Below, piece after piece: positions 5,989 to 59,700 of a stretch of DNA of 64,000 bases. Below the pieces are notes generated by a model. It made no database searches and was not told the origin of the DNA. It was given only the letters and a program-made list of their open reading frames with translations. The DNA comes from Cenococcum geophilum 1.58 (lineage: Eukaryota; Ascomycota; Dothideomycetes; Gloniales; Gloniaceae), in NCBI GenBank assembly GCA_001692895.1, contig KV748179.1:806001-870000 (forward strand). The letters run 5' to 3'. Position 1 is the stretch's first letter. Each line of letters begins with the position of its first letter. The translations under genes were made by a program, and so were the position numbers.

Positions 5989-7082
5989 GTTAAGTATAAG
6001 GCTAGCGATTATATTAAGTTTAGAAGAAGTAAAGAGTTCCTTAGTAGTGTTAAACTAGTCTAGAATTTCTTCCTTAGTCTATTTTATTTGGTCCTCCTTA
6101 TATATTATATTATATAGAGACTATACTACAGTAACTCGTTTATCCCTTTTAACCTATACGCCTTAGTAACATAAAAGGGTTTATAGGTTATGGATAGTAG
6201 TAGGGTTACAGGCCTTAAAAATAGCTTCTATAAAGTCCGCGAAGTCTTCCTAGTACTATTCCTATAGGTCATTATTTATAAACTTAAAGTATTTGTACTT
6301 AAGGGTTTTAAATTAAATATAGTCGTTAATGTTATCCGTAGACGTAAGGTTAACTCCTTATCTCCACTTCTTTTAACCTTTACTAACTTGCTTACTAATG
6401 TCTGCTATACTATATAATATATTCTGGTGCATAGTGGGTAGGAGAGGTCTTATAAAGGTCTATAAAATCGGTTAACGGGCCCGTAACGGTTTATAGAAGG
6501 GTAAGAGGTCTTTGTAAGGGGTTAGAGAGAAGGCCGGGGTATTAAGGTAGTTAGGGTAGTCGCGTTCTTAGTATAATCGCGTTCTTAATATAGTCGCGTT
6601 AACTACTAGTATAGTAGTCAATATCTCTAATTAAGGTGGAGCGTAAACGTCTTCTAAAACTAGAGTAGATTTAAGGTAATTCTAGGTAAGGTAAAGCGTT
6701 AGACGTCTTCCAAATCTAAAGTACTTTAATTCTCTTTAACTAAAATAGGGGCTTGTAAGGTGGAGCGTTAGACGTCTTCTAAGTAAGTGTGTATCTCCTA
6801 ATCTGTGCGCGATTACTAATTAGTATTGGTACTAATTTAATGGTATAAGTAAGTCGTGTCTAGGGGCACGAAATACGTATAGTATTATATGCTCATTTAG
6901 ACGGTAGTGACTGTTAATTCTATTGAGGTGGGCTACGTGGTCTATATACTAACGCACCTTCCCCCTAAGCTAGTGTTTTAGGAGTGCACCAGACGCGTAA
7001 GCGAACTAAACGCGTAAACGCGTACTTGGTGTATCGAACCGCGTAAGCACGCGGTTAGTACAGCAGGTGCTGTAATTATACA
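5989..7082 (-). repeat. Copia 5' LTR (right copy)
   Basis: Direct repeat of 1-1094. Its outer end at 7082 is CA on the plus strand, so the element starts with TG on its own strand. About 1.1 kb is long for a fungal Copia LTR. The inner boundary is set only by where the alignment reaches the window edge, so the true LTR could extend a little further. Confidence 0.8.
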
Positions 7083-21500: not shown

Positions 21501-21825
21501 CTCGGCAATAGATTATTTATAGAGGGGGGTATAGCTACATCGGGAAAATATTCGCAGGATGAGATTTAAGTAGACTTTGTTGAGCGCGTTTCGCGTAATT
21601 GACATTCAAATTGACCAACTCGACACGCAATTGACCAACTTGACACATTCAAAAGTTAAATAACACGCAGTTAACCTATTTAACATATTTAAAAGTTAAA
21701 TAACACGCAATTAGCCTACTTAACAACTTTAAAAGCTAACTATATATTCCTTGACATGCAATTAAGGTAAAGTTATATGCTAATTACGCAAATGAATTTT
21801 TACACAGTTTTATTACTTAGAGGCT

Positions 21826-22385
21826 CTGCACAAGGCTCTGCACAAGGCTCTACACGAAGCTCTACACGAAGCTCTACACGAAGCTCTACACGAAGCTCTG
21901 CACGAAGCTCTGCACGAAGCTCTGCACGAAGCTCTGCACGAAGCTCTGCACGAAGCTCTGCACGAAGCTCTGCACGAAGCTCTGCACGAAGCTCTGCACG
22001 AAGCTCTGCGCGAAGCTCTGCGTACAGAGGCTCTGCACGAAGCTCTACACGAAGCTCTACGTACAGAGGCTCTGCACGAGGCTCTGCACGAGGCTCTGCG
22101 CGAAGCTCTGCGTACGGAGGCTCTGCACGAAGCTCTGCATGAAGCTCTGCACGAAGCTCTGCACGAAGCTCTGCACGAAGCTCTGCACGAGGCTCTGCGC
22201 GAAGCTCTGCGTACAGAGGCTCTGCACGAAGCTCTACACGAAGCTCTACGTACAGAGGCTCTGCACGAGGCTCTGCACGAGGCTCTGCACGAAGCTCTGC
22301 GTACAGAGGCTCTGCGCGAAGCTCTGCTTACAGAGGCTCTGCGCGAAGCTCTGCGTACAGAGGCTCTACACGAAGCTCTGCATCG
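21826..22385. repeat. 12-bp minisatellite array, about 46 units
   Basis: Unit CGAAGCTCTGCA with variants (CGTACAGAGGCT, CGAGGCTCTGCA). Because 12 is a multiple of three, it gives long Arg-Ser-Ser-Ala-type open frames that are not genes. The other copy of this TIR element carries only about five units (58798-58856). Confidence 0.9.
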
Positions 22386-22494
22386 GGTCCCCGCTATATT
22401 CCCGATAGCCTCTACACGTGCCTCTACCNTATGTANCCACCTTATTTTTTACCCTTCCTTCCTTCTTTATATCCTCCCTACCTAGGGAGGCACC

Positions 22495-22715
22495 AGAACG
22501 GCAGCCAGCAGAGGACCGTCGCCAGAACTAGACGACTGTCGCCAGAACCAGACGACCGTTGCCAGAACCAGACGACGACCGTTTGAATGACCAGCTAGCA
22601 AACACCACGAATGAATCAAGGCCTCCTAGGGAGGCACCCTAGACGACCACCGTTCGAATGTAATCAGGGCCTTCAATCAGGCCGACCCCTCCCCCAAATT
22701 GAATCATACACTGAC

Positions 22716-22748
<33 letters not shown>

Positions 22749-22860
22749 TAGGTAGGTAGGTAGGTAGGTAGGTAGGTAGGTAGGAGACGACCGTCGCCAG
22801 AACTAGACGACCGTTACCAGAACCANACGACCGTCGCCAGAGCCAGACGACAACGACTAG
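22495..22860. repeat. 20-bp GACGACCGTCGCCAGAACC repeats and GGCA/GGTA microsatellite
   Basis: Runs of AGACGACCGTCGCCAGAACC units at 22500-22580 and 22785-22855 surround a (GGCA)n(GGTA)n tract at 22718-22782. The same order recurs at 58975-59425. One ambiguous base occurs. Confidence 0.85.
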
Positions 22861-22904
22861 CCAGCGAACACTATAAACGATTCGATCGATCGATCGAATC
22901 AAGG

Positions 22905-23250
22905 CAGCACAGACAGGTAGGCACAAACAGGGAGATGCTGACGGGTAGGCAGATGCAGACAGGTAGGCAGATACAGACAGGTAAGCAGATGCAGACAGGC
23001 AAGCAGATGCAGACAGGTAGGCAGATGCTGACGGGTAGGCAGATGCTGACGGGTAGGCAGATATAGACAGGTAGGCAGATGCAAACAGGTAGGCGATGCA
23101 GACAGGTAGGCGATGCAGACAGGTAGGCAATATAGACAGGTAGGCGATGCAGACAGGTAGGTAATGCAGATAGGTAGGCGATGTAGATAGGTAGGCGATG
23201 TAGGCAGGTAGGTAGATAGGCAGGTAGGTAAGTTAATAGGTAAATAGGTA
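22905..23250. repeat. 18-bp GCAGATGCAGACAGGTAG-type repeat array
   Basis: About 18 imperfect units, with 14-15 bp variants lacking CAGAT at the right end. Preceded by the palindrome TTCGATCGATCGATCGAA. Open frames over it are repeat artefacts. Confidence 0.85.
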
Positions 23251-23403
23251 GAAGAGAACCATCGCTATATTATATTAAATTATCTAAAATAATAATATTT
23301 ATTTTACTAGCCTTATAAATAGCCTTAAAGTAGCTTTTATTTATTTAAAATATGCTATTAGTATTATTGTTGCCAAATGCGCAGATTACTAGCAGGTTGC
23401 GCG

Positions 23404-23862: not shown

Positions 23863-24192
23863 TGTAACGGAATCCCCCAGGAGGTACATATTAGATAAGA
23901 TAGTAGGAGGTTTTATTAATGTCCCGTCTACGTCCTATGTATGTTCTAAAAGAGACATAGTTAGATAGATAGGGGCGAAAGGTTTTACTAGTGTCTTAGA
24001 AGGTATATATAGGAGGCTGGCTCTCCTCTAGAGAAGAGCTAGCGATTAGTCTCTAAATAGAAGAGGTCAGAAAGCTTTTGTCCTTTATACTTAAAGATTA
24101 TTTTACCTTAACTTATCTTCTACTTGCCTGTAACTCTTATTCTATACTATTAATTAAATAGTTATATATTCTAGTTAGACTAGCCTCTTATA
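23863..24192 (+). repeat. 5' LTR of Gypsy C
   Basis: 330 bp, TGTAACGG start and a RIP-altered TACA end. It aligns base for base with 32252-32581, with transitions the main difference. Confidence 0.9.
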
Positions 24193-27100: not shown

Positions 27101-28584
27101 TAGCGTTATATAACGCACGACTAGGAGCTGCTTATAATAGTTACGGCAATAAAGTACTGGCGATATTATTATATAGGAAGTAATTACCCTATTAAAGTCC
27201 TTATAGACCATAATAACCTAGAATACTTTATAACTATAAAGGTGTTAAGCGGTTAATAAGCTAGATAGGTAGAGGTACTATTATAGTATAACTTTAAAAT
27301 TATATACCGCCTAGGAAAGATAAATCCCGCTAATAGGTTGTTAAGACGTTTAGATTATAAGATAGGAAGGATCTAGGACAACATAGGGGAAATAATTCTT
27401 ATATTACAAAATTTGCTTAGGAAGAAAGAAGACTCTTTCCCTAAAACTATAGAATTTTATAGTAGGACAGAGGTCCTAGCGATGCAGCTGCGAAGCGCCA
27501 TAATTGTAGAGCTGTAGGATATAGTTATAGACTAGGTTATAGGCCAGGCAGATATTATAAAGTTAGCGTACCTTAAAATTAGTAAGAATTCTATAGAATG
27601 TGCTAGGGGTATTACGGCACCTTTAACTTAATGGCGCACTAGCTGCAAGTGTCCGGATCTAAGGGGGATAGGCAAAATACTTATCCGCAGCGTAGTATAT
27701 TGCATAACAGTAGGAGAATTTACTAGCACTAATGGTTTAAAATATCTTATGCTACGCCTTGTGTCTATAATGGTAGTAGGTAAAACAGAAGTAAGCAATT
27801 TATATAAAACCTTTTTAGATCTTCTTCTTTAAGTATAATAGAGGGACGCCTTTGTTTCTAGGGAGAGGTAGAAAGATATAGTAAAGACCAACTTAGCTGG
27901 AGTTACTAAGAAGCTATAGCAGCAAGACTAAAAGGGTTTATTACGCTTTAAGGGTGCTATATATATCCTAAAGGACTAAGCAGTTTAAGATAAAATTCTA
28001 AAGATCTTCTATAATAACCCTTTTGGGGGTTACTACGGTGCTAATAGAACCCTTAAGGCCGTTTAAAGGAAATACTTTTAGGATGGAATGTCTGAAGAGG
28101 TTAAGGACTATATATTAAGATGTAATACGTGCTAAAGGGTATAGATATCTAGATATTACCTATATAGCAAGTTATTAGTGCTTCCTATTCCGTAAGGACC
28201 TATATTAGAATTAATAATAGATTTTATAATAGGCTTACCCCCTACTAAAATAAGAACTAAAGAGGTTGCTAATGCTATTCTAGTAATTATTAACAGATAT
28301 ACAAAGTTCTTAGGGTACTTTGCTGTTATAATAACGATTATAGTAGTAGAGCTAGTAGACCTGTTTTTGGAATGGTAGCTCTTATTTAGCACGCCTAAGG
28401 GAATTATATCTAATAGAGGTACCGTATTTAACAGCGTATTCTAGTCTTTATTCTATCTTTTATTAAAAATACAGTAAAGAATAAGTACCGCCTTTTACCT
28501 ATAAATAGATAGGCTAACGGAGCGTCTAAATATGTTATTAGAATACTACCTCCGCTGCTATATTAATTATTAATAGAATAATTA

Positions 28585-29583
28585 ATAATAATTCTTTGAT
28601 TAACGTCTGATACGGATGCTATCTAGCCCTACGCAGACTACTCCGTATATAAGGGAAAAGTAATATTAACGGGAAAAAACCCTTGCTGCTGGGGGGGAGG
28701 AAAAACCCTATAAGCCACCTCAGTAGGATGAAAAACCCCGTTTGCCATGTCCGCACGTAGCAGCGGCCCTACGGGCCTACAGCTACGTCCTGTCCTCCTT
28801 GGATATTCGAACTCCTTAGGAACCACTACTTCCTTCTCTAGCTTATCTAAGCTAGGGTTTACTACGTCCCAGCTAGGCCTTGCTACTTAATTACTATCTT
28901 GCTGTTGTTTCCCATATCTTGGCCATCCCATATATACTATCTCTTATTTAACCATTGCCATATACGCTATGCCTCCCCCCCCTAGGGCCTATTGAAGGCG
29001 TAAGGGGGATTCATCCGTTCCAATTACCGTAATACTAACAGCGGGATATGTTGTATTGGGTATCTTTTGTGCCTAGGCCCCAGCTAGGCCCTTTCTAAGG
29101 GTCACCACTCCGTCGAAAGGAGATAAGGAAAACCGTAGGTCGCAATCCAGGCTGCTGGGTATTTAGTACTTATCAACGGCGAGTAACCGTATACTCCGCG
29201 GGCGATCGCCCTGGGGGTTAGAAGGGGCCGTATATTTGCTCGTTCGTTTGCTCGTTCGCAATCGCTCGTTCGTTGATGTAAGAGGTCGTTAATGCTTTCT
29301 GTTGGGGGTCGGGGGATGCTATCAAATGCTGTATATCCACGTTGGATCGTACAGGTGCCTTAATAGGAGAGTAGCGTAGCTAAATTGTAGAGGGCCACAG
29401 TAGTGGTTTTCGAGATCTCACCATCTGAAAATTTTTCACCACCGCCCATAACGCTCACAACCACGACCACCAGGTCCTATCGCACGCTGTGCGACGTCTC
29501 TGCGTTGGCTCTAAGTCTGAACTTTAAAGACCCAGGTTCGTAGCCGTCACTACGTACAGGTGCAGAGTCCGTTTTCGACGGCC
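28585..29583 (-). mobile_element. 1-kb SINE-like retroelement, copy 1, with 5' HDV-like ribozyme
   Basis: Inserted in the integrase part of Gypsy C with a 14-bp duplication TAATAGAATAATTA (28571-28584 and 29584-29597). On its own strand it starts GGCCGTCGAAAACGG and ends in an ATT/AAT-type tail. A long, variable target duplication plus a simple 3' tail is typical of target-primed (LINE-mobilised) elements. No open reading frame was recognised, so it is probably non-autonomous. It is GC-richer than its host element, with a (CGTT)-rich patch at 29239-29278. Confidence 0.85.
29498..29583 (-). ncRNA. HDV-like self-cleaving ribozyme (copy 1)
   Basis: 86 nt on the minus strand. P1 is GGCCGUC/GACGGCU, P2 is CUCUGC/GCAGAG, P3 is ACC with a one-mismatch partner AGU around a 7-nt loop, P4 is an imperfect stem, and the joining segment is CCAA. 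P3 is followed directly by the 3' strand of P1, the diagnostic double-pseudoknot order. Predicted cleavage lies exactly at the element's first base. Confidence 0.75.
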
Positions 29584-30839
29584 TAATAGAATAATTAGAT
29601 ATTGTAGTTAGCTTTAGCGTAATATATATATAATATAAGCATCTACAGTAGTATAAAAATGACCCCTTATAAAGTATTATTTGGGGTAAAAGCAAATAAC
29701 CTTTAGAACGTTAAGGATATTATTCCTAAAAGGGAGGTACTAGCAGCGTCTGAAAGAATTAAGTAAATAAGAATTCGTAGAGAAGAACTTAAAAAGTACT
29801 TACTAGACGCCCAGGCTATATAAAAAAGGTACTATAACGAAAAATATATGCTAAAAGAATTTAAGATAGGAGACAAAGTCTTATTATTTATAAAAAATAT
29901 TCAAATAAAACGTATTAAGAAGAAGCTAGATTACCAGTAGCTCGGACCCTTTAAGATAGTTAGGAAAACTAAAGAAAATTAAGCCTATAAATTAGAATTG
30001 CTAAAATTATATCTAATACATTCTATATTTTATGTTTTCTTACTAGAGCTATACCGGAGAAGAGACGGTGCGGAACCGCTACTACCTAGCAAAATTAATA
30101 GGGAACTAGAATAGAATATAGAAGATATTTTAGACTAAAAATGGCGCCAAAAAAAGCGCGAATTTTTAGTTTATTGGGAAGAATACTCTTAGGTATATAA
30201 TAGTTAGGAACCTAAAGAGCACCTTTAGCTGGGATATAACACGGTAATTAAAACCTTCCTAAGGACTAAAGATAAAGATTTAGTAATGGTTCCGGATACG
30301 CTATAGACGAGATAATAGGAAAGACCCCGTAAATTAAAACCATAAGGTTAAGCATAGGTATTAAGAATGGAAATATTTTACTATTATAACAGGGATCCTA
30401 GAACCCTATAAGGGGAAGCCTATAAGATCTATAGGAGAACCACTAGGGATACTATTAGAAGAAGACGCTATTTAAGAATAAGTAGTAGTAACACGAGAAG
30501 AGGTCTTGGGGATTTAGAAGGACCCTCTAGGGATAAAAGAAGAGTATCCGGTTTGGCACCAGAGATACATAGTAGAGTTAATAGTACAAAAAGAAGTAAA
30601 AAGACAGCCTATAAAAAACTAAAAATTTTAAGAAATTATAAAGCACCTATAGGAATACTACCCGTTTATTATATATGGGGATTATAGTAGTATACTGCCT
30701 TTATACAAATTATTACCGAAGTTTAGAATAAAGTATCCCTAAAGTATAAAGTTAATTCCTAGTACTAGGGCATCCTAGAGGCACCAGAGAGGCACCCTAT
30801 AAAGCTATCCTATAAAAAGAATGAAAGAATAAGATAATA

Positions 30840-32240
30840 ACTTAAACACTAGAAGTAGTAACGAGAGCCTCCTCCTTTATCTTAACGTTATTATTAGTAG
30901 TATTATTAATACTCCTATCCCCAGAAGCATTAGCATTCTTACTAATATTCTTCTTAGAATAGTAAGAACTAAATGGACTATTACAACTAGGGGACTAGCG
31001 GGGAGAACGTTTATCTTTATTACTATCCTTAATATTATCCCTAGGCTCCAAATTGGCATCTAGGCTAGGATTAGAAAGTTAATAACTAAGGAGTTAGTAT
31101 AGTTCCTAAACGTATTACTAAAGAGACTTACCTGGCTAAAAAGGCCCGCGTAAAAGTGTAAATATTATTATTTATAAAAACAAGCTGCTTATATATGCGC
31201 TCCTAAACACTATATGTCTAAGATTACTGCGTCTCTATAGCAGTAGAAACCCTTATTAAATTAAAAAGGCTATAAGTAATAGAAGATACCTTCTATCCCT
31301 ATCTATTACTATTTTAATATAGACGGAAATCCCTAATAGCGCGTTGGAGTCGGTGAGCCTTATACGCGTAAATAGCAGGGATCTAATATAGTTAGTGAAG
31401 TTTAGAATAGGATGGAATAGGAAATACTAAAATATAAGTCTTTTTCCGGCTGTAATAGTAGGAATACTTAGATCTGTTCTTGCTAGAGCGCGGCATTTTA
31501 TAGGCGTGGGATGGGTTTAATATAAGCGCGTAAATATAATAACGGTAGTACTTTAGAGAAACTACTATAGGAGTAATAAAAGTGGTTTATAATGCTAACG
31601 GAGTAGGGATAACGCCGCCGCTAGTCTAGGGACGCGTAGTATAATTACAAGCTATTGCAAGAGAATACTATAGGAAGTTAGTATTATTAAGGAGATAAAA
31701 TAGGGATCCTATTACCTATAAACGCGTTATAAGAAGAGGACAGAGCAGTGGAAGAAAGAATAGCTAGAGATATAAAAGCTAAAAGCTAAGATATAATAAA
31801 AAACGGTCTGCTAAAAGGCGAGACAAATAGTGTTATTAATAAAAAGGCGCGTAAGAGACGACAGCTTATAAACTGAAAGAAATTAATATAAAGACGTTAT
31901 TATTAGGACCTATTTTAGGTAAATAGGGATAGTAGCTAGTTAACGCGTTATATAGGATAACCCCCAGATTAGCTTATGACAAATTCTTATAATAAGGAAG
32001 GTAAATCCCATCTAATTTTTATTATTATTATTAAAGTTCTATTATAAAGGCACTATAAGAGCTATAGTAGAAGAAGAGCGGAGAAATAGAAAGATAAAGT
32101 AAGGTTTTATACTAGTAAAGAACTAGTAATAAGCCGTATTATAGAGTACCTTTCTACTAAAGAACTTCCCTAGTGGTTTTAGCCGGAACTCTATAAGGGA
32201 TTATTAAGAGGCGAAGTCTTAGAGAACTAAGACCCTTAAA
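30840..32240 (-). other. Antisense coding-like stretch in the 3' part of Gypsy C
   Basis: Between the chromodomain and the 3' LTR the minus strand has codon-like composition, with Asn/Ser/Lys-rich low complexity at 30850-31080, while the plus strand does not. It is part of the fossil and broken. Function unknown. Confidence 0.4.
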
Positions 32241-32251
32241 GGGAAGGCAAT

Positions 32252-32581
32252 TGTAACGGAATCCCCTAGGAGGTATATATTAGATAAGATAGTAGGAGGT
32301 TTTATTAATGTCCCGTCTACGTCCCATGTATATTTTAAAAGAGACATAGTTAGATAGATAGGGGCGAAAGGTTTTACTAGTGTCTTAGAAGGTATATATA
32401 GGAGGCTAGCTCTCCTCTAGAGAAGAGCTAGCGATTAGTCTCTAAATAGAAGAGGTTAGAAAGCTTTTATCCTTTATACTTAAAGATCGTTCTACCTTAA
32501 CTTATCTTCTACTTGCCTGTGACTCTTATTCTACACTGTTGATTAGATAGTTATACGTTCCGGTTAAACTGGCCTCTTACA
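32252..32581 (+). repeat. 3' LTR of Gypsy C
   Basis: 330 bp, TGTAACGG...TTACA, followed by the CTTAC duplication. Confidence 0.9.
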
Positions 32582-32586
32582 CTTAC

Positions 32587-35500
32587 AATCGCGGATTTTA
32601 ATAACCCGCAGGTGGCCTTCGCTGCTAATCTATCTCCGTTTGGCCATTACTATAGTAAGCATATGCGGAGTATATGCAGATACCTACTTATAAAGCCTTA
32701 TAGGCCTAATTCTAAATCTAAACCCTAATTAGGTAACGCCTGGTAAGTTATTTAATTGCATATGCACGGTATATGCTTATAATAACTATAGCGCGTACCG
32801 TAGCAGCTCTTGCTAGGGGAAGACGTAAGTGTATATAGAATCGCATATCTAGTGTATATGCTAACTGTATATAGCTTTAGCTATTACGGTTTAAGACAAC
32901 GCAAGTATATATGGCTTTATGTACTGCGTAGGTATATACTAAGCGTATACTAGACCTACTTAATACTGCCTCTCTGCTCTTCTTAGTGAATACTATAGTG
33001 TATATTACTTATATATATCCTATGTGTAGCATATGCTGAGCTAAAGTTTAGGTATGATATCGCTGTTAACGGCACGCAGATATACGGCTGTGTCTTTACC
33101 GCTTAACTAAGTATACGTTTTGCATATATATAATACCTACGGCTCTACTAATATGGCTGTAGTATTGCCGGTATATTTGTAATAAGCACAGCGGTGCTTA
33201 TATATACTACTATATTGGTGTAATATCTTGGTATATACTTACTATATGCAGTAACTAACCTAACTATAAATAATACGCCGGCTGGAGAGCTTATTATAGG
33301 CGAGAAGTATGTGCTATATATATATAGCGCATATGCGAGGCTAATGCATAGTAGCGCCTTAAAACTGTTTGTTCTCTCTAGTAGTTAGCGGGATGCTAGA
33401 TACCTGTATGAGCCCGGGTATATCTATACCTATATATTGCATATATATTGCTAATAGTATATATAGTCGTAGCCCTTTAGGGTCTAGGATCTTAGAGTAT
33501 ATAGATGCCTATATACTCTTTATATATGCCCACTCTATGCCGCGTATATACTTAGCCTAAGCTAATTAAATATAGTGCCTAGGACTAGGGGTTTACTACC
33601 TAATTTAGTAGGTAATTCTATCGCGAGGTAAGAGCACTAGTGTCGCTTCTGTATATGCGCACTATACCCTAATATATATATCTATCTATCTATATACTTA
33701 TTCCCCTTAAGTTTAATTTTAGACCTAAAGGTACTTGTAGGCCTAAGGGTAGCGTATATAAGGAATAAGCACGGCTACTACTAGGGCTACTGCCCGATTC
33801 CGAAACTAATGCTTAACTCTATATTTAGGAGACTGGGAAAGCCCGATTTAGCGTATTTTCTATATATATATTACTAAAACTATTACTTGGTTATATTGCT
33901 AGCTTATATGCGTATATACTACATATATATAAACCCTTAATATCTTCTACTAACTATAGGTTAAGACGCGCTTATACTAGGCGTATGCTAATATAAGGGA
34001 AATAGTGTATTGGCCCTATTACTCCCTCCACTAGCTTAAAGCGCAAGGTTAGTATTTTACCTGTATATGCTTAGTATACGCTAATAATATGCGTAGCGTG
34101 GCCCGACCCCCCCAGGCAACCGTAAGAAATCTCCCTTACCGTCTATATGCCGCTAAAGCGGTATGTTTGCTTTATATATATCCTATATATATATTACTAA
34201 TATTTAGTACAGGAAGTAAAAAAGCAACCGGCCGCCGCTGCGGTGGTAGTAAGAGTTCTGGTAAGTTTAGTTTATTCTATTACTATATATATTATACTTA
34301 TGCTCTATATAAGCTACTCCTACTACGGGTAGAGCCCGTTACTCGTCCCGCCTTACTAGTTAGGTTTTAGTATATGCTGGGCCTGTACACTATATACGTA
34401 GTGTATAGTATACATTGTTAGAGTTTTAGTAGAGTTTGCTAGGTGGGTAGGCTAGGTGGGTAGGCTAGGTATATGCCTAATATAGGGCGCGGGGGCTATA
34501 GGCCCATTAATTAATTCTTTTCTTATTATAATAAAACTCTATATAATATTTGCTCTCCGTATACTATATATATACGCCCTATATACTAATACTATACTCC
34601 TACGCCCACTTCTTAAGCTCCGCTAGTTTCTTTGCTTTATTATATATATTTTTAGCCTGTTTTAATTTACTAATTTATTACTCTATATTTTTTACACGTA
34701 GTGTATATGCCTCCTTTTCTATCTCCTTTATAGATAGGTTAGACCTATACCTTTTACCCGCAGTCTGGGGCGTTTAACTTTAAGATAGTAGGGGCGGCAT
34801 CTGCGATGCATATGCTGTGGATACGCGCGACATATCCGATACTAATATAATATTATTATCTACTGTACTTATCTGCGATATAGTTTGCCTACTAAATATA
34901 GTGGATAATTCTACATTAGGTATATGCTGTAGATTTGGCTTAGGGGTGTTAAATAGGTTCTAAGGATTTTAAGGAAGATTTAGTCTAGGATTTCTAGCTT
35001 ATTACTTAGCTGCTTTCCACTATTTCTAGGCTGCTTAAGCTTAGTATATACTTTGCATTTATAGCGTATATACATACATTGTTTCTCTAGCTATATTGCT
35101 ATCCGCTTTAAGTCGCAATAATTTCTCTACGTATTATCTATTCCCGTCTCTTTATATAGCTCTTGTATATTAAATATCTCTTACATATAGAGTTTAAGCC
35201 TATACTAAACTATTAGAATATATAGTGCATATGCAGAGCGTATATATTACCGAAGTACTATAGCAAGTACGTATAATTTTTAACCAGCAAAGTTATTGTT
35301 TTAAAAATAACTACTCTTACTAATTCTAGTATACTTCTGTGTATATACCCACTACTTATAAGGCACCTTTGACTTTTCCTTTATAAGCCTAGCCAGTATC
35401 TATATTTTCTTCTTATTATTTATCTAAGACGTAAGCTCCGGATGTAGTGTGTATATACTTTATATACACGCTATAAGTTTCTGCTCTGTCTCCGCTTCCT

Positions 35501-35652
35501 ATATCTACTCTATAATATATCTTGCTTTATAAGTTAGAAAGCGCTTTATAAAGTTCCGTTTAATATATACTAGGTAGAATACAAGTATATACTAAAGGTG
35601 TTTGTCCTATTTATGTAATGGGTTAATTGTATATAGGTAATCTTTAAAGCCT
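32587..35652. other. AT-rich body of the 9-bp-TSD element, part 2
   Basis: Dominated by TATA/TATGC words. Paired ATATGC motifs recur (for example near 32655, 32755 and 34805). Intron-like segments with GTATGT/GTATAT donors, CTAAT branches and AG ends occur near 33420-33470, 33512-33571 and 34160-34212, between short GC-richer stretches. No protein family was recognised. Confidence 0.4.
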
Positions 35653-35666
35653 GTATATTATTAGTA

Positions 35667-36679
35667 ATAATAATTCTTCTTTGATTAACCTCTAATACGG
35701 ATGCTATCTAGCCCCACGCAGACTACTCCGTACATAAGGGAAAAGTAATATTAACGGGAAAAAACCCTTGCTGCTGGGGGGGAGGAAAAACCCTATGAGC
35801 CACCTTAGTAGGATAAAAAACCCCGATTTGCCATGTCTGTCCGTAGCGGCGGCCCTGTGGGTCTACGGCTACGTCCTGTCCTCCTTAGATGTTCGAACTT
35901 CTTAAGAACCACTACTTCCTTCTCTAGCTTACCCTAGCTAGGGTTTACTACGTCCCAGCTAGGCCTTGCCAATTAATTGCCGTACTACTGTTTCCCGTAT
36001 CTTAGCCATCCCCTATATGCTATTTCTTGTCTAACTATTGCTATATACGCTATGCATTTCCCCCCCTAAGGCCTATTAAAGGCGTAAGGGGGATTTATCT
36101 ATTCTAACTACCGTAATACTAATAAGCGAGCGGGATATTATGTATTTGGGTATCTTTTATACCTAGGCCCCAGCTAGGCCCTTTCTAAGGGTTACCACTC
36201 CGTTAAAAGAAGATAGGGAAAACTATAGGTCGCAATCTAGGCTACTAGGTAGTATTTAGTAGAAAAAACGGTGAGTGACCGTATGCTCTGCGGGCAATCG
36301 CCCTAGGGGTTAGGAGGGGCCGTATATTTGCTTATTCGTCTACTTATTCGTTCGTAATCGCTTATTCGTTAATATAAGAGGTCGTTAATACTTTCTATTA
36401 GGGGTCGGGGGATACTATTAAATGCCGTATATCTACGTTGGATTGTATAGGTGCCTTAATAGGAGAATAGCGTAGCTAAATTATAGAGGGCCATAGTAGT
36501 GGTTTTTAAGATCTTACTATCTGAAAATTTTTCACTACCGCCTATAACGCTCACAACCACGACTACTAGGTCCTATCGCACGCTATATAACGTCTCTGCG
36601 TTAGCTCTAAGTCTAAACTTCGAAGACCTAGGTTCGTAGCCGTCACCACGTATAGGTGCAGAGTCCGTTTTCGACGGCC
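35667..36679 (-). mobile_element. 1-kb SINE-like retroelement, copy 2
   Basis: 14-bp duplication GTATATTATTAGTA at 35653-35666 and 36680-36693. The sequence is collinear with copies 1 and 3 throughout, but richer in C-to-T and G-to-A change. It sits in the body of the 9-bp-TSD element. The tail reads AATAATAATTCTTC before the common 3' end. Confidence 0.87.
36594..36679 (-). ncRNA. HDV-like self-cleaving ribozyme (copy 2)
   Basis: Same fold as in copy 1, but with intact P3 (ACC/GGU, loop UAUACGU) and an extended eight-pair P4 (CUAGGUCU/AGACUUAG). The joining segment is CUAA, keeping the putative catalytic C. Confidence 0.78.
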
Positions 36680-36693
36680 GTATATTATTAGTA

Positions 36694-39005
36694 TATACTA
36701 GGCATATATATAGCGTATACACTCTATATATATACCACTAGCTTATTTCTTATATATATTAACTATAGCCGTATAAAGTCTAGTTCCGTAAATATGTGCA
36801 AATTATATAGATAATTAAGCAGTATTACCTAAAACCTTAAATATGAGCTTAAATATCTTTATATATGTAACACGTGTTTCTAGGTTTAGAAAGGCGTATA
36901 CCTATACCTTAATTCCTGTTATAAATATTAGCCTATATATAGTATATGCGTAGTATAGAGCGTGTATATGTTTTGAATTCTTGTCCTATTTAGCAATTAA
37001 GAATAGATTCGTTTTACCTCATACTATTTTAAATAATAGGTCCATTTTAATATATGTTACGTGTTGGAATGCCTTAGCCTATGTGTATGTACAACATACG
37101 ATAAGGAAATGCTTGTCATTAAAGTTATAAATTGCCCGAATCTATTGCTCGGTGTTCTCTTTATATTAGTCTATAAAGAATTCGCGTAGGATACCTGCTT
37201 TACTTAGGCTGTGTATATGCATAGCGTATATCTACCCTATACTTACCTGCATATGCCATCCCCTCTAGGAATTATAGCATCCTCTCCTTTCAAATTAATA
37301 TAGTAATTTGATCCTTAATATTAAGACTACTATATACTACACGTAGTGTTTACGCCCTATACTTCCTATATAAAGTATAATATTCCGGTAATAGGATAAA
37401 TCGACCTATACTATAGTAAGTAATTTTATTTATATATACTATGTATATACGGGGCATACGTGTAGTAAGGCTTAGGACTTCTACCTGCCTTATTACTTTA
37501 ACTACGTTATTAGTAAGGTTAATTAGTAGCTTTATTAGGTATAGTAGATAATATATATAAGAATTCCGCGTAATAAGGCAAATATAAGGATACCGTGCTA
37601 TATTAATAGGAATATAGCAATTTAGCTATGCACTATATGTTCGGCTTATTACTCTACCTTGGCCTTACGGGTGGTTAAACCCTATATAGGGTTAATATAT
37701 ACGTAGCGTATGTAGGACGGAATATTACATACTATAATATTTTCGCTTTAATGTTAAATGTCTAATATAGGTATATTCTTATTTTAATTCTTAAATTCTA
37801 TATTTTATAAGTAGACGAAGGTATCGAATATCTACTTAGGTGGTTGTTGATAATAAAGGCCAGGCAGTATGCTATGGTTTAATATCACTGCTGCTAGAAT
37901 AACCGATAAACTTAATCTGTATATAATAAGCATATATCACGCATACGCTGGCTATACGCGTACTCTATGCTGAAAAAATATTGTTAGTCTGCTTTTACTA
38001 TATACACGTTCTTTTGTCCTAGGGTAAATACACTACCGCCATAATTATAGAATACTGTGGTAGTAGCTGTATATTATAAGTATATATTTAATATATATAA
38101 ACAATGCTTACTTCTCTGTGATTTACTTAAGCTTTTTATTAATCTCTACCGCCTAGTATAGACGACTGCTACGCTTTTAAAGGTCGTTAATAGATTTAAG
38201 CTTAACCCTATTATATGCGGGGTATATACGGAGGATATCCTTATAGGCGTGCTCGCAGTGTCTAATGCCGCTATATTTAAACGCTTAATAAAATACTTTT
38301 TTACTCTCCCGATTATTTTCTCTAAGAAGCTGTAGTTGTGTAATCTTAGGGTTACTAGTTTTATGGAATAAGAATTAAATCTACTAGAGGTATAAACAGA
38401 GTATATGCCTAGCATATATATTGCTTACCTTTAATATATACTGCTTAATAACCTTATATACTGTTTCTTTATCTGCATCTATAGATAGTAGAGGTGTTGC
38501 TTTATAGATAAAGTGTGCAATCCCTTTTTTTTTGTTACTAGATATTCTGGCATTATAATATAATCTACTGCCTCTTGGATAATAATTTAATACTTACTAT
38601 AGGAGCTAACAAGTGCTCTATAGTCTTAAAGTGTGGTCTGGCTATCCTAAGCATATATATAGCCTATGTATAGCCTATATATAGAGCCGCATAGAGTTTT
38701 ACTTTAGAGAGACCTATATAAAATGGAAGCCGCTATTATATACCCCCCTAACCCTTGACCTCCTTATTCTCCTCCTTATCCTCCTTATCTTTAATACTTT
38801 CTCTACTAATTATATCATCTTTAGAGCCATCGTCTTTGTGTCTAATATTAGGTGCAATTTGGGGTATCTGCGTATACTTAGCATATGCGTAGTATATGGT
38901 TATAGATACTAACTGGTAGGCCGTTTAACCACCCTACTATACTCTCGTTTGCTTTAGTATAGTTTTTACTCGCTATTAGTATAGTAAGGGACGTATAAAT
39001 ATACG

Positions 39006-39036
<31 letters not shown>

Positions 39037-39154
39037 ATATCCTTATGTATATATCTCTGTGTATATGCGTAGCATATGCTCTAGATATTTTGGTTTGTGT
39101 AGTCGCTTAAGTTAAATGTGGCTACTGATGCGCGTTCTGTATAGATAAAAGTTA
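36694..39154. other. AT-rich body of the 9-bp-TSD element, part 3
   Basis: Continues the same composition and paired ATATGC motifs. A minus-strand stretch at 38146-38415 is open for 89 codons with mixed composition but no recognised family. A (TA)n microsatellite lies at 39003-39032. Confidence 0.4.
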
Positions 39155-39264
39155 AGTACCACCGACCTTTTTCCGGCGTTCCATCGGCGACCACGCTTAG
39201 CTTTCGCCGACCCACATCGGCGACCACGTTCAACTTTTTCCGGACCACGCTCAGCTGTAACCCC
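39155..39264 (-). repeat. Right terminal region with GCGTGGTC modules
   Basis: Inverted relative to the left end: ACCACGCTTAGC, ACCACGTTCAAC and ACCACGCTCAGC, each followed or preceded by a TTTTTCCG stretch. Confidence 0.7.
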
Positions 39265-40631
39265 GGTTGCGTGCAGGCTGCGCGCAGGCTGCGTGTCAAA
39301 AAAACACGACATAGGCTAGTCGGTCAAGTTGCCAAATGCCCTCAACTGCGCGCCAATTGCGTCAACCACCAACCATTGAGGCCATTGGTAGGGTACCATA
39401 TTTTGCCGATGTAAGGGCGTTTTCCTTATCTGACTTAATCTCGATCTTGTAGTCGTATAGTTAGTATAGTGGAAGTATATTAGATGCTGCCTTAGAGAAT
39501 ACGTCCTTAAACTTTTAGTATTAATAGGGTAGTTTTTGTTCTACTAGCTCCTTGTCTATAAGCTTACTTTTCTATCCACTAAGCTTACTTTCCTTTTTCT
39601 TAAGTATTTAGTTAATTTTGTATAAGCTAGTTATAAAAGTAATAGTATTAGGCTGGACTAAGTTCTAGTAAAATCCTACGGCGCTAATACAGTAGATATT
39701 AACTAGTGGGAGGTCCGCAGGTTTCCTTATAGCCGTTTATTAGACCGTATTTTACGGTTTAGGGTTTATAATCTTTCTTAGCTCCTACTCTATTTTTCGC
39801 AAGTTATCCCTTTGGTTTATTAGTTTAGTATAGTGTCTAATATTCCTTACTATTTTTTGTAGCTATATAGGGCCTAAGCTCTCTATAGGGGGCTTTTTTA
39901 GGTTATTACTAACTTTTTAGGTCTTTAATGCGGGTAGCGTAATATAGGTAGTTTGGGGGCGGCGTAGTATACGGATCTATTGCGGATTAAGCTATATATA
40001 TTTCTTAAAGGCCTAGTCCCTACGTATAGCATCGGCCTAGTAAATAGTATTGATCTAGGGCCGTATAAGATTTTCTATTATAATGCTAATTTCTTTTATA
40101 AAGGAAGGAGTTGGGGGTACGGTTTTAGGCTAGATAAGCCGTCTACTCTATATATTTAGCTATAAGCCTAAATAGGCTAGCTATTTTCTCCTTAAGATTA
40201 TATTATAGCTTCCTAGGTCCGTAATAAGAAAGGGGATATTATATTACCTTCGTCTATTAATATAAAGGTAAATCCGCAATATAGTTATAATAGGTAGTCC
40301 TACCTATCTGTTATACCCACGAATAGGAATTAGCTTAGGCAGTTCTTCTAAAGGCGCATTAAAAAAAGTTAGCTAGTTTTATAGTGTACTTTATATTAAT
40401 TAGGGTAAAGGCATTTACTCCTAAGTTAGCTAAAGCAGAGGTTAAAACTTAATATCTATTACGGAATAAAGTATAAGGGATAGTGCAGCTTCTTCTACTA
40501 ACTATCTAACCCAGATTAATATATAATATGTCAATTCCTTTTAACCTTAGGGAGGAGTCTTCCCCTAGGGTTCCTCTTTTTCTAACTCTATACTATCCTC
40601 CTAGGTTAGTGGGACCTTGTTTATCTTTGCC

Positions 40632-40706
40632 GGCCGTCGAAACCGGACTCTGCACCTGTATGTGGTGACGGCTACGAACCTGGTCTTATCCAGAGCCAAC
40701 GCAGAG
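40632..40706 (+). ncRNA. HDV-like self-cleaving ribozyme (copy 3)
   Basis: 75 nt. P1 40632-40638 with 40667-40673; P2 40648-40653 with 40701-40706; P3 40654-40656 with 40664-40666 (7-nt loop); P4 40680-40683 with 40690-40693; joining segment AGCCAAC at 40694-40700 containing C-C-A-A. All helices pair perfectly apart from a G-U at the cleavage-site end of P1, which is also usual in HDV. Confidence 0.82.
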
Positions 40707-41614
40707 ACGTCGCACAGCGCGTGCTGGTGGGCCTAGTGGTGGTTGTATGCGTCGTGGGGCGTAGTGAAAAGTTTTTACATGGGATGGTGAGATCTCGAAA
40801 ACTACTATAGACGGTACCCCTTCACAATACAGCCATTACTGTTCCCCTACTAAGCACCTATACGATCCAACATGGATGCACGGCATTCGATAGCATCCCC
40901 TAACCCCCAACAGAAAGCATCGACAACCTTATATTAACAAACGAGCAATTACGAACGAACGAGCAACGAGTAAATATACGGCCCCTCCTAACCCCCAGGG
41001 CGATCGCCCGCGGAGCATACGGTCACTCGCCATTAAAAAAACGACTGAGTACTACCTGTAAGCCTGGATAACACCGTATGGTTTTCCTTGTCTCCTTTTA
41101 ACGGAGTAGTGACCCTTAGAGAGGGCCTAGCAGCTGGGGCCTAGGCATAAAAGATACCCAGGTACACACATCCCGCTTGCCTGTAGTGGTAGTTTATAGA
41201 TAGATGAATCCCCCTTACGCCTTCAATGGCCCTAGGGGGGGGGAGGCAAGGCGTATATGGCAATGGTTAAATAAGAGATAGCACACAGGGGATGGCCAAG
41301 ATATGGGAAACAATAGTATAGCAATTAATTAATCGTAAGGACTATATGTCCTAGTAAAGGAAGCAGTGGTTCCCAAGGAGTTCGAACATCTAAGGAGGAC
41401 AGGACGTAGCCGTAGGCCCGCAGGGCCGCCGCTACGGACGGACATGGCAAACCGGGGTTTTTCATCCTACTGAGGTGGCTTATAGGGTTTTTCCTCCCCC
41501 AACCCAACTGCAGGGTTTTCTTCCTGTAAATTACAAGTTTTCCCCCTATAACAGAGTAGTCTGCGTGGGCCTAGATAGGATCCGTATCAGACGTTAATCA
41601 AAGAACTACTACTA
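40632..41614 (+). mobile_element. 1-kb SINE-like retroelement, copy 3
   Basis: Plus-strand copy inside Gypsy B with a 12-bp duplication TTTATCTTTGCC (40620-40631 and 41615-41626). It starts GGCCGTCG directly after the duplication and ends in (CTA)n. It has lost little GC, so it may be the least RIP-affected copy. A 60-codon open stretch on the other strand (41325-41507) has no recognised meaning. Confidence 0.87.
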
Positions 41615-43053
41615 TTTATCTTTGCCTTTATTAGGCAGTTCCTTATAGGGTAGCTAGGTTAACTATATAAAAAGTAAGCTCCTTAATTATTAAGGGCCTA
41701 TATATCCCTTGCAACGTTAATTCGGGTCCTTAGGTTATCGATAAAAACCAACCAATTAGATTGGCTGAATTTGGTGCCCGTACTTAGAAATATTATGGTG
41801 TTCCTGCACGGACCACTTACTCTAAGGACCCTGACGTTGCAAGGGATAGGGGTCGCTGTATATAGGCCGGGTGTATACTAGACCCGCAGTAGGGATAGCT
41901 ACGCGGCTAGTTGCTAGGTTAACTATAGGCTAAGCGGCCGGTGCTATAAGGGTTGCTAATTATACTAGGGCACTATAGGCCGTTCTTATAGTACTTATAG
42001 CCTAGTATACAAGGTTTCTGGTTTTTAGCTAATTGGCGCGTGCCTTAATTTAATAAAGGCCCTAGTTAATAGGTAGGCAATAGTCTATAAGTTCCTTTAA
42101 TATCTATGCTATAGTATAAGCTAGTAATACGGCCCGCTATAGGTCTAAGGTAAGCTTATTAAAGAGGTTTAGTAGTAGGTCTTTTTAGGGGATTTAGGCC
42201 TATCTGGCTAGGTATAAAAAGCAGGTCTAGAAGGCTAAAAAGGTCTCCGTTGTTTTTATATTTAGGCTTTTATAGCTAAGGCGGGCGTTCTATACTTTAA
42301 AAGGGTCTTTATAAATAGAAAATAAGTATTTATTTATTTCTTCTTTAGATATAAAGGGGTCTACTAAGTCTTTAGTATGTTGCGGGCGTAAATACATCTA
42401 GGCGTCTCCGCTAGTACGGCTAAAGATATAGGCCATCTTAGCTTAGGGGGTAGGAAAGTGGTTAGTATTAACTTTAAGCTTATCCCATAATTAAAGCTTC
42501 TAGTTATTAGGTATTAGGTCTACTCTATCTATAAGTAGCGGGGGATCCGCGACCTTTACTAACTGCTTTAGTGCTATATAGGCCTTAGTGGATCTATTAA
42601 GGCGCTAGGATAGGGTCTAAAGGACTATAGTAAGTCTTTAGTTATCTAATAATGACTTATTATTAGATATAGGGGTATCTCTAGCTTTAAGCAGCTCTCG
42701 CAATTGTTTAATTTTAGTATTAGCTGCTGTAAGCTCCGCCTAGGGGGTTAAAACATTAATTATTTCTTTGTCTAAGGTATTTAAGGGTCCTATAGCTGCT
42801 TTGCCTACTACTATGTTTTGTAGCATAGTAGTAGGGGTATTAGATAATTCTAAATAATTTCTTTAGGGGGTTCTGGTCTGTGCGTGTTTTATAGGTCCTT
42901 TCCTTAGGGTTCTATTCTTTTCCTTTTAAGTCCTGTCCTTATAATCCTAGTAATGTCCTTAAGGTCTTATTCTATATTCTTGTTCTATTTATAGTCTTAT
43001 AGATATATTTAAGTTCCTTTTTAAAAAGAGAGAGTAGAATAAGCTTTAGATAA

Positions 43054-47513: not shown

Positions 47514-47936
47514 TGTAACGGAACCTTATAGCTTAAACTACGGTGGGTCCTATTAATGGGCTAGGTATATAGAAATAGATAAGTTAACAACGTAATAATA
47601 ACTAGTGGAGTGGTTGCCCAACAGATTAACTCCAATTATATTCTGAGAATTACTATAAGGAAAGAAACTATCTAGGTAGGGACTAAGGGTCCTTAAATAC
47701 ACAACTATACTCCTATGAAATCCTCCTTATATGTAAGGTACGTGAGGTACGTAAAGTATATAAGACGTTCCTTATAGACCTTGTAGAGCTTATAGAGCTT
47801 ATTATATAACCTTAGTTACTATTCCTCGTCATATAGCTCCATAGGTTCTATCCTAGACCGTGCCTATATTAACTAACTAGCTTCTTCTAACTCTTCTCTA
47901 AGTAGTTATAATATTGTACTTAAAGCGTTTGTAATA
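47514..47936 (-). repeat. 3' LTR of Gypsy D
   Basis: 423 bp, starts TGTAACGGAACC on the plus strand and ends in a RIP-altered GTAATA. Matches 57581-58003. Confidence 0.88.
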
Positions 47937-57580: not shown

Positions 57581-58003
57581 TGTAACAAAACCTTATAGCT
57601 TAAACTACGGTGGGTCCTGTTAATAGGCTAGGTATATAGGAATAGATAAGTTAACAACGTAATAACAATTAGTAGAGTGGTTGCCTAACAGATTAACTCC
57701 AATTGTATTCTAAGAATTACTATAAGGAAAGGAACTATTTAGGTAGGGACTGAGGGTCCTTAAATACACAACTGTACTCCTATGAAATCCTCCTTATATA
57801 TGAGGTACGTGAGGTATATAAGGTACGTAAGACGTTCCTTATAGACCTTGTAGAGCTTATAGAGCTTATTATGTAACCTCGGTTATTATTCCTCGTCATA
57901 TAGCTCCACGGGTTCTATCCTAGACCGTGCCTATATTAACCAACTAGCTTCTTCCGACTTTTCTCTAAGTAGTTGTAACATTGTACTTAAAGCGTTCGTA
58001 ACA
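57581..58003 (-). repeat. 5' LTR of Gypsy D
   Basis: 423 bp, TGTAACAAAACC...CGTAACA on the plus strand, followed by TACTA. Confidence 0.88.
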
Positions 58004-58429
58004 TACTAAGGATAGAGTACGGGATAGGGGTAATAAGAAGAAGGTTGCTGTCTACTATAGAAAGAAGTTTGCGTATACGCGTTAAGTTTTAAAAGAGCAT
58101 AATATAATGCGGTATTAGATAGGTTACCCTTTAAGTACCTAGCAGATAGGTAACTAATAGTTACTATAGTAAGGTCTTAGTGGTTTTAGACTATACTAGC
58201 TAGCTAACATCTCTATTTATTCTAGGCTTAAGCGTATTTTTATTAACTATAAGCTTACACCGTAAGAGCTTTATTAGTATTGGTTTGGACCTATATCGGG
58301 AAAATATTCACAGGATGAGATTTAAGTAGACTTTGTTTTTCGCGTTTCGCGTAATTGACATGCAACTCGACCAACTCAACACGCAATTAACTAACTTAAC
58401 ACGCAATTGACCAACTTAACACATTTAAA

Positions 58430-58725
58430 AGTTAAATAATACGCAGTTAACCTACTTAATAACTTTAAAAGCTAACTGCATATTTCTTAACACGCAGTTA
58501 ACCTACTTAGCAACTTTAAAAGCTAACTGCATATTTCTTAATATGCAGTTAATATATTTAAAAGTTAAATAACACGCAGTTAACCTATTTAGCAACTTTA
58601 AAAGCTAACTGCATATTTCTTAATATGCAGTTAATATATTTAAAAGTTAAATGACACGCAGTTAACCTACTTAGCAACTTTAAAAGGTAACTGNATATTT
58701 CTTNACATGNAATTAAGGTAAAGTT
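58430..58725. repeat. About 80-bp tandem repeats
   Basis: Three to four units containing ACGCAGTTAACCTACTTAGC and GCTAACTGCATATTTCTTAA, in the left part of TIR copy 2. Copy 1 has only a reduced version at 21640-21770. Confidence 0.75.
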
Positions 58726-58974
58726 ATATGCTATATATTTAACTATTATATATTATCTAATATAATCTTATACAATCTTATATAGTCTTATTACTTGGAG
58801 GCTCTACACGAGGCTTTGCACGAGGCTCTGCACGAGGCTCTACACGAAGCTCTGTATCGGGTCCCCGCTATATTCCTAATAGCCTCTACACGTGCCTCTG
58901 CCCTATGTAGCCACCTTATCTTTTACCCTTCCTTCCTTACATCCTCCCTACCTAGTGAGGCACTAGAACGGCAG

Positions 58975-59246
58975 CCAGCAGAGGACCGTCGCCAGAACTA
59001 GACGACTGTCGCCAGAACTAGACGGCCGTTGCCAGAACCAGACGACGACCGTTTAAATAACCAGCCAGCAAACACCACGAATAATTCGATTGATCGATCG
59101 ATCGAATTGAACCAGAGCTTTAATATTGGCCTGTCACCGAATCGAATTAAGGCCTCCTAGGGAGGCACCCTAGACGACCACCGTTTGAATGTAATCAGGG
59201 CCTTTAATCGGGCCGACCCCTCCCCCAAATTAAATCATACACTGAC

Positions 59247-59279
<33 letters not shown>

Positions 59280-59700
59280 TAGGTAGGCAGGTAGGAGAGG
59301 ACCGTCGCCAGAACCAGACGACCGTCGCCAGAGCCAGACGACTGTCGCCAGAGCTAGACGACCGTTACCAGAACCAGACGACCGTTGCCAGAGCCAGACG
59401 ACCGTCGCCAGAGCCAGACAACAACGACTAGCCAGCGAACACTATAAACGATTCGATCGATCGATCGAATCAAGGTAGCATAGACAGGTAGGCACAAACA
59501 GGGAGATGCTGACGGGTAGGCAGATGCAGACAGGTAGGTAGATGCAGACAGGTAGGCAGATATAGATAGGTAAGCAGATGCAGACAGGCAAGCAGATGCA
59601 GACAGGTAGGCAGATGCTGACGGGTAGGCAGATATAGATAGGTAGGCGATGCAGATAGGTAGGCGATGCAGNCAGGTAGGTAGATAGGCAGGTAGGTAAG
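58975..59700. repeat. 20-bp, GGCA/GGTA and 18-bp tandem repeat blocks of TIR copy 2
   Basis: Counterpart of 22495-23250, with different unit numbers in each block. An open frame across 59354-59704 (minus) is a repeat artefact. Confidence 0.8.

Follow-up and report, generated by a model that had tools for sequence, protein, structure and literature searches.

A dispersed non-autonomous retroelement of a fungal genome that probably begins with an HDV-type self-cleaving ribozyme

Results

Three Copies of One Element in the Window

The stretch of DNA analyzed here, called the window, comprises 64 kb (C4:806001-870000) of a 177.2-Mb genome of 162 contigs, which appears fungal from the character of its proteins and LINEs and from its CpA mutation pattern. 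It contains W1, W2, and W3, all of them full-length copies of one ~1-kb non-LTR element that we call family 1 (Table 1). A sequence-only reading of this DNA had described an HDV-like ribozyme at 40632-40706, at the start of W1; P1, P2, P3, P4, and the C-N-A-A joining strand can all be read there as it claimed. Additionally, the GU of L3 (40658-40659) is able to form P1.1 with the AC at 40674-40675. L3 is UGUACGU in most other family-1 copies, and W1 has one C-to-U change within it. The imperfect P3 that had been noticed in one window copy is caused by a G-to-A change in P3′ of the copy near 29.5 kb, W2. The predicted cleavage site had been said to coincide with the junction between target-site duplication and element in all three copies, and indeed each duplication ends directly before G1, the first nucleotide of the head.

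One part of that reading needs qualification. P4 does vary in length, from four pairs in W1 to eight, one of them G.U, in W3 (by eye). However, this variation is a weaker argument for RNA structure than had been claimed, both because the A-U pair of W3 is most simply explained by two C-to-T type CpA changes of the kind produced by repeat-induced point mutation (by eye) and because no family-1 pair is changed on both sides.

Table 1. Family-1 copies in the window and parts of copy W1 (window positions)
Feature	Position	Strand	Basis
Family-1 element copy W1, 983 nt, non-coding	40632..41614	+	ends from 12-bp duplication; longest Met ORF 46 aa
W1 putative HDV-type ribozyme head; cleavage predicted at 40631/40632	40632..40706	+	satisfies strict descriptor
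W1 P1 5′ strand GGCCGUC; partner GACGGCU at 40667-40673; first pair G.U	40632..40638	+	read from sequence; L020 strands identical
W1 P2 5′ strand CUCUGC; partner GCAGAG at 40701-40706	40648..40653	+	read from sequence
W1 P3 ACC/GGU with 7-nt L3 UGUAUGU	40654..40666	+	read from sequence
W1 P4 CUGG/CCAG, differs among copies	40680..40693	+	pairs by eye
W1 J4/2 C-C-A-A-C; 40696 is the predicted catalytic C	40696..40700	+	sequence and descriptor
W1 target-site duplication, 5′ copy TTTATCTTTGCC	40620..40631	+	duplication analysis
W1 target-site duplication, 3′ copy	41615..41626	+	duplication analysis
W1 3′ tail homologous to 3′ end of Tad-like LINE Tad-B, same genome	41555..41605	+	score 40; 0/2000 shuffles as high (best 28)
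W1 terminal short repeat CTACTACTA at 3′ end	41606..41614	+	read from sequence
Family-1 copy W2, 1001 nt; head 29583-29498, one P3 pair broken	28583..29583	-	search and duplication
Family-1 copy W3, 1015 nt; head 36679-36594 satisfies strict descriptor	35665..36679	-	search and duplication

Other repeats were seen as well. Two related copies of a repeat-rich segment lie at 21535-23364 and 58291-59832, the former with a 12-nt tandem array that is open on both strands (229 and 211 aa of EALH and RASC-type repeats). Direct repeats with a length of 300 nt or more, 88–95% alike, pair 1-300 with 5989-6288, 23863-24162 with 32252-32551, 47514-47813 with 57581-57880, and 29252-29551 with 36348-36647. 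The last pair consists of parts of W2 and W3, and the other three could be the paired ends of nested LTR elements. Among the loci fetched from elsewhere in the genome, lone N positions are scattered in repeats at L015:7074-7200, L029, and L052.

Ends, Coding Content, and Copy Number

A genome DNA search with the family-1 head, in which the best 40 of 606 candidates were scored, yielded 39 non-query copies, of which 20 were fetched. Together with the window copies (W1 being the query) they form a sample of 23, 20 of them reached by head similarity. Every fetched copy matches the 989-base query from nt 1 to nt 980-988, one (L016) with an interruption of about 4.7 kb. Target duplications of 12-16 bp flank the element in 23/23 copies, and the 5′ duplication ends directly before G1 in 19/23; in the remaining four it is displaced by +1, −1, −2, and −3. 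Over 253 copy pairs, mean identity is 33% (maximum 63%) in the 30 nt upstream and 95% in the element's first 30 nt, the copies being head-selected. Thus, the 5′ end of family 1 is sharp. Its 3′ end is TTAATCAAAGAA or a near variant, after which come short CTA/TTA repeats. In the 8 copies for which we determined them, the longest Met ORFs span 46-86 aa; because they are short and inconsistent in place and strand, we take the element as non-coding. The duplications, the boundaries, and the ORFs together bear out the earlier description of a dispersed non-coding retroelement of ~1 kb.

Family 1 is abundant. A 25-base head pattern, allowing up to 3 mismatches, occurs 604 times genome-wide (reversed-pattern control, 0), and a 22-base tail pattern 981 times (control, 3). 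The excess of tails over heads is consistent with 5′ truncation or decay. Starting from the tail, a count that is not head-selected, an exact head lies 974-1019 bp upstream in 19/42 exact tails listed on contigs C1-C20; this count covered exact heads alone. In 22 aligned copies, C-to-T type changes relative to the column majority affect 21% of CpA, 3.7% of CpC, 12% of CpG, and 5.5% of CpT sites. This five- to six-fold excess of CpA over CpC is the mark of repeat-induced point mutation in family 1. Head conservation across the same copies is biased, 19 of them having been chosen by head similarity to W1, itself a 20th, and we therefore leave it out of the evidence.

The varied duplicated sites, the short-repeat 3′ tail, and the absence of an RT are those of a non-autonomous non-LTR element inserted by target-primed reverse transcription (TPRT); for the second family described below, this rests on one copy. 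The internal Pol III boxes and tRNA head of a tRNA-type SINE are not present: an A/B-box pair is absent from the 23 family-1 copies in a crude consensus scan (the first 301 nt for L016), and ARAGORN reports no tRNA gene at 28000-42000 of the window.

An HDV-Type Arrangement at the Element's Start

The arrangement is illustrated by the clean copy L020 (7564-7480), which has P1 GGCCGUC/GACGGCU (G.U first), P2 CUCUGC/GCAGAG, and P3 ACC/GGU with L3 UGUACGU. The GU of L3 can form P1.1 with the AC that follows P1, P4 varies among copies, and CCAAC immediately precedes the last strand of P2. The HDV-like topology is a nested double pseudoknot of P1, P2, P3, P1.1, and P4 that is cut 5′ of P1, as outlined in PMC4908430, and the R2 ribozyme is described as having a catalytic C plus four rigid positions (PMC3774820). 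Our strict descriptor specified 7 pairs in P1 (the first may be G.U), 6 in P2, 3 in P3, and 4 or more in P4; L3 had to be 7 nt long with U first and G sixth, and C-N-A-A had to stand before P2′. The exact positions held fixed in L3 and J4/2 are our own assumption.

This descriptor matched the 64-kb window twice, both strands being searched and both matches lying at element 5′ ends, and it had no match in 60 dinucleotide shuffles. When a J4/2 shorter by one base was also allowed, 363,078 bases (the window plus the loci) gave 21 rows, all at element 5′ ends: 20 family-1 heads, some from overlapping loci, and one at L052. The same form found nothing in 84.0 Mb of dinucleotide-shuffled pieces. All 21 rows have C-N-A-A in J4/2 and the U and G in L3, as the descriptor requires. 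Because the descriptor was drawn up after family 1 had been seen, and the shorter J4/2 entered its strict form after L052 had appeared, the shuffles measure chance and not hindsight. A loose descriptor, which allowed G-U pairs and variable joints, is no better than chance, with 3 matches in the window compared with 0-5 per shuffle in 8 shuffles.

P1 through P4 are thus present by the descriptor, with a P1.1 of GU/AC in family 1 and of CC/GG in the second family. Of 23 family-1 heads, 17 pass strictly (the first P1 pair may be G.U), 3 need wobbles elsewhere, and 3 (L011, L013, and W2) fail. The HDV-type fold proposed for the element start is therefore intact or wobbled in 20/23 copies, and a like arrangement occurs in one copy of a second family.

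A Second Family with an Unrelated Head

That copy lies at L052, a locus fetched solely as a LINE relative, where the second head appeared unsought. It was first seen in a wobble scan of 274 kb that had included both J4/2 lengths from the outset. Independently, a covariance model of family 1 recovered it at 16 bits (E 0.011 over 32 kb). The sole other match of the wobble scan outside the families, at L034, has AT-rich surroundings and is treated as chance. The L052 head, on the minus strand at 3735, has P1 GCCCGCG/CGCGGGU, P2 CUGCAC/GUGCAG, P3 GCG/CGC, L3 UCCACGU, P1.1 CC/GG, a long P4, and CCAA before P2′; it is unrelated to family 1 in sequence as read, and alike in arrangement. A 14-bp duplication, TATATATTATTTGC, directly precedes the head and recurs past the 3′ end, bounding an element of 2,715 nt. 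This is the one family-2 copy whose flanks were read. Its head is itself repeated: the best 40 of 357 candidates scored in a DNA search are at least 96% identical, and a 27-base head pattern occurs 301 times genome-wide (control, 0).

Rfam Models, Folding Energies, and Covariation

A covariance-model search of this genome had been proposed as a check on the ribozyme. At their gathering scores, the Rfam HDV models match neither the window nor any of 8 loci searched whole; the family-1 model found the L052 head. The W1 head has no Rfam HDV match up to E 10. Up to the same limit, L020 has only two, RF02682 at 13.8 bits (E 2; gathering 44) and RF01787 at 13.7 bits (E 2.2; gathering 37), both beginning at element nt 1. 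The L052 head reaches 29.3 of 44 bits with RF02682 (E 0.0007) and 31.1 of 50 with RF00094 (E 0.0051), again below gathering. In whole-genome searches, RF00094 gave 0 sub-threshold matches with 86 of 983 candidates scored, and RF02682 gave 1 with 61 of 7861 scored; sub-threshold matches occur in 4/14 and 8/14 control genomes, respectively. The known heads are absent from both of these lists, in which few candidates were scored, so the two whole-genome searches carry no information. Since we take these models to be narrow, we count the failure to reach gathering scores as weak evidence against a ribozyme. The sole RF02682 match among the scored candidates, at C81:661519-661594 on the minus strand (28.9 bits, E 0.156), may be a further HDV-type head or a chance match.

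Nested folding energies are no better than those of shuffled sequences (z 0.17, −1.33, and −0.28); a pseudoknotted fold can explain this, but the energies lend the ribozyme no support. Covariation was the other expectation for further copies. Their 5′ ends do fall at the start of the fold in 19/23, but the helices do not covary inside family 1, where no pair is changed on both sides among 12 distinct rows. Strong covariation is found instead between the families. With one sequence per family, 10/18 pairs are compensatorily changed and none is broken; both sides differ in 3/7 pairs of P1, 3/6 of P2, 2/3 of P3, and 2/2 of P1.1.

Shared Tails and Candidate Helpers

LINEs with endonuclease and RT domains are numerous in this genome; for the endonuclease domain PF14529, the best 150 of 396 candidates were scored. 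Both domains are present in L029 and in L030 (Tad-A), and Tad-B (L051) has an endonuclease match at C65:220407. We take the partner LINEs to be Tad-like, and the name is used here on that assumption. The LINE of L029 was dropped as a partner because, by eye, it terminates in a run of A.

Over its last ~51 nt, family 1 aligns with the Tad-B tail at a score that 0/2000 shuffles reach. The match to the Tad-A tail is weaker, 4/2000 shuffles scoring as high for W1 and 15/2000 for L020. For element 2, the match to the 3′ portion of Tad-B (L051) starts at nt 1497 and has 78% identity over 1.2 kb. Both families thus have a 3′ tail in common with an autonomous LINE of the same genome, as LINE-dependent (stringent) SINEs and SIDEs do. 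A third, apparently non-coding repeat type with a Tad-like 3′ tail was seen at L015:7064-7620, at L057, and at L030:7380-7600 on the minus strand. The L015 repeat (bounds approximate, by eye) aligns with the Tad-B tail at a score of 41 (0/2000 shuffles), and at L057 about 250 nt upstream of the repeat match the element-2 body at 87% identity. No 5′ head was found for this third type.

We found no autonomous copy that combines the same head with the same tail. The Tad loci L030 and L051 have no wobble-descriptor match, and the covariance model gave nothing there better than E 0.87. Head-domain distances were counted with all 150 scored endonuclease matches (of 396 candidates). A scored same-strand endonuclease domain no more than 8 kb downstream is present for none of 100 listed family-1 heads (of 604) and for 4 of 119 listed family-2 heads (of 301); no listed family-2 head has one upstream. 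An endonuclease domain lies on the opposite strand at 3 of the listed family-1 heads and 1 of the listed family-2 heads. The four family-2 heads lie at C57:1055122, C20:660896, C20:663325, and C17:2165357. Their distances, given in ascending order and not in that of the heads, are 1826, 3494, 4468, and 5923 bp, and two of the heads point to one domain. These heads, each with an endonuclease domain 1.8-5.9 kb downstream, are candidates for an autonomous ribozyme-headed LINE.

Two presumed LINE 5′ ends were rejected. The boundary at L030:677-682, considered as a ribozyme-free 5′ end of Tad-A, is only where the L030 sequence begins to match, and Tad-B copies extend beyond the assumed start in L051. 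The 5′ similarity of Tad-A to Tad-B is not significant (641/2000 shuffles as high). At L030:523-677, the Tad-A copy of C101 begins, judging from an apparent duplication seen by eye, with a stretch of ~125 nt. This stretch also occurs at seven other listed places lacking the LINE's 5′ part and is possibly the result of a template jump. The Tad-B 5′ regions at C65:212496-213096 and C65:218559-219159 are 100% identical and 6,063 bp apart. The L051 LINE has inverted copia-like sequence on both sides (by eye), and together with the C65 pair this perhaps reflects recent local duplication.

Discussion

Our analysis points to a non-autonomous non-LTR retroelement that very probably starts with an HDV-type self-cleaving ribozyme of ~75-86 nt, which would trim the element from read-through RNA for copying in trans by a LINE. 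As judged from sequence, this arrangement suggests that the RNA may free its own 5′ end by cutting before a helper element copies it. In such a cycle, the element would be transcribed inside a longer read-through RNA, and the ribozyme would cut 5′ of G1 and so fix the 5′ end. The predicted cut does coincide with the observed insertion boundary. A LINE-encoded protein may then bind the 3′ tail, whose homology to Tad-like tails is observed, and target-primed reverse transcription would proceed to the cut end, leaving the 12-16 bp duplications that we see. We propose the same cycle for family 2, with its unrelated head and 1.2-kb Tad-B tail. The same logic has been set out for R2 elements and SIDEs (PMC3414825; PMC3774820) and for trypanosomatid L1Tc/NARTc (PMC4035085).

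A uniform 5′ end could also mark a transcription start; the conserved head would then serve as a promoter or start-site element, with an HDV-like fold that is incidental or secondary. Promoters that start RNA at the exact 5′ end are known for some non-LTR elements (PMC3774820), the trypanosomatid Pr77 head is described as both promoter and ribozyme (PMC4035085), and the family-1 head is well conserved, if in a biased sample. However, the fold satisfies a strict descriptor that is silent in 84 Mb of shuffled sequence, and compensatory changes separate the two unrelated heads. The crude scan of 23 copies also finds no A/B-box pair, and 28000-42000 has no tRNA gene; we consider this explanation very unlikely. 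Still less probable, to the point of being nearly negligible, is that an ordinary SINE-like element has a GC-rich first 80 nt that happens to fit the fold. The loose descriptor performs at chance level, folding energies are unremarkable, and scores lie below Rfam thresholds, all as coincidence would have it. Against coincidence stand the same shuffled 84 Mb and the presence of two sequence-unrelated heads, each at a duplication-bounded start. A different matter is whether the ribozyme, having worked during the spread of the element, has since been inactivated in most copies by point mutation, so that the window copies are idle relics. This would be compatible with a self-cleaving, LINE-copied element, and we regard the question as almost evenly balanced, leaning slightly against. 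The CpA bias of C-to-T type changes (21% vs. 3.7% at CpC), the 3/23 failing heads, the 3/23 that need wobbles, and the broken P3 pair of W2 all speak for decay, whereas 17/23 heads still pass strictly, in a sample in which 20/23 copies were found through the likeness of their heads and W1 served as the query.

The origin of the heads is less clear than their proposed function, and we hold either of two accounts only tentatively. The heads may have been inherited by internal deletion from a ribozyme-bearing autonomous LINE, as with Drosophila R2 SIDEs, in which case they would also be present, now or formerly, in the partner LINE. Element 2 retains 1.2 kb of LINE 3′ sequence, as such descent would leave it, and 4 of 119 listed family-2 heads have a same-strand endonuclease domain downstream and none upstream. 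Yet those distances are unequal, two of the four heads share one domain, and the corresponding number is 0 of 100 for listed family-1 heads. L030 and L051 also have no head by descriptor or covariance model, their Tad 5′ ends being provisional. Descent from such a LINE is therefore possible but somewhat doubtful. The other account, which we likewise regard as a possibility rather than an expectation, is one of a class of mosaic retroelements in filamentous fungi: unrelated HDV-type heads would have been set at least twice before Tad-like tails, the LINE itself would be ribozyme-free, the parasite would have evolved promoter-free propagation, and some of the fungal HDV ribozymes already known, but so far without an explanation, would be such heads. 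If so, any read-through transcript could be trimmed to a unit-length template.

If a ribozyme does head these elements, it would account for the sharp 5′ end of a promoterless 1-kb element over hundreds of insertions, and ribozyme-headed parasites of LINEs would reach fungi and Tad-like LINEs. Retrozymes use hammerhead ribozymes and circular RNA. They too are non-autonomous retroelements with a self-cleaving ribozyme (PMC4918200), but the present elements have one HDV-type head each, in the copies read, and LINE-type ends. Among fungi, 230 variant HDV ribozymes have been reported from 26 species, in addition to 11 conventional ones known earlier (PMC5640933). Their gene associations are given as widely variable, and transposons go unmentioned in the main text of that report; heads such as ours offer a possible role for ribozymes of this kind. 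Typically, the cut-site pair of the fungal variants is C-G, their P4 contains a loop E, and an additional nucleotide separates P2 from P3 (PMC5640933). Both heads described here have a G.U first pair and no P2-P3 nucleotide and are not of the fungal variant type (loop E judged by eye); they share with the variants the HDV class and the fungal host, here in a retroelement setting.

Ribozyme-headed non-autonomous elements are known, in NARTc and Drosophila SIDEs; a fungal retroelement with an HDV-type head, and hence the Tad-tailed, two-family version, was not found in the literature searched, with most subscription papers lying outside that search. HDV-like ribozymes are reported at the 5′ ends of LINEs in several clades, including R2, R4, L1, and RTE (PMC3774820). 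The closest parallels are the Drosophila R2 and R2/R1 hybrid SIDEs, which are non-autonomous and combine a 5′ HDV-like ribozyme with the 3′ end of an autonomous LINE; in the hybrids, ribozyme and tail come from different elements (PMC3414825). SIDEs reside in 28S rDNA and derive from R2 and R1 (PMC3414825), whereas the elements described here are dispersed over many contigs (604 and 301 heads as counted by pattern), have Tad-like tails, and have no ribozyme-bearing parent LINE found so far. In their dispersal, they resemble trypanosomatid NARTc, RIME, and SIDER, which are non-autonomous and LINE-related and carry the Pr77 HDV-like ribozyme in their first ~77 nt (PMC4035085). The autonomous L1Tc of trypanosomatids has the same head as NARTc (PMC4035085), whereas here an autonomous carrier is not established. 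Unlike trypanosomatids, this genome has two unrelated heads, and it would thereby make inheritance from a LINE testable against repeated recruitment of ribozymes.
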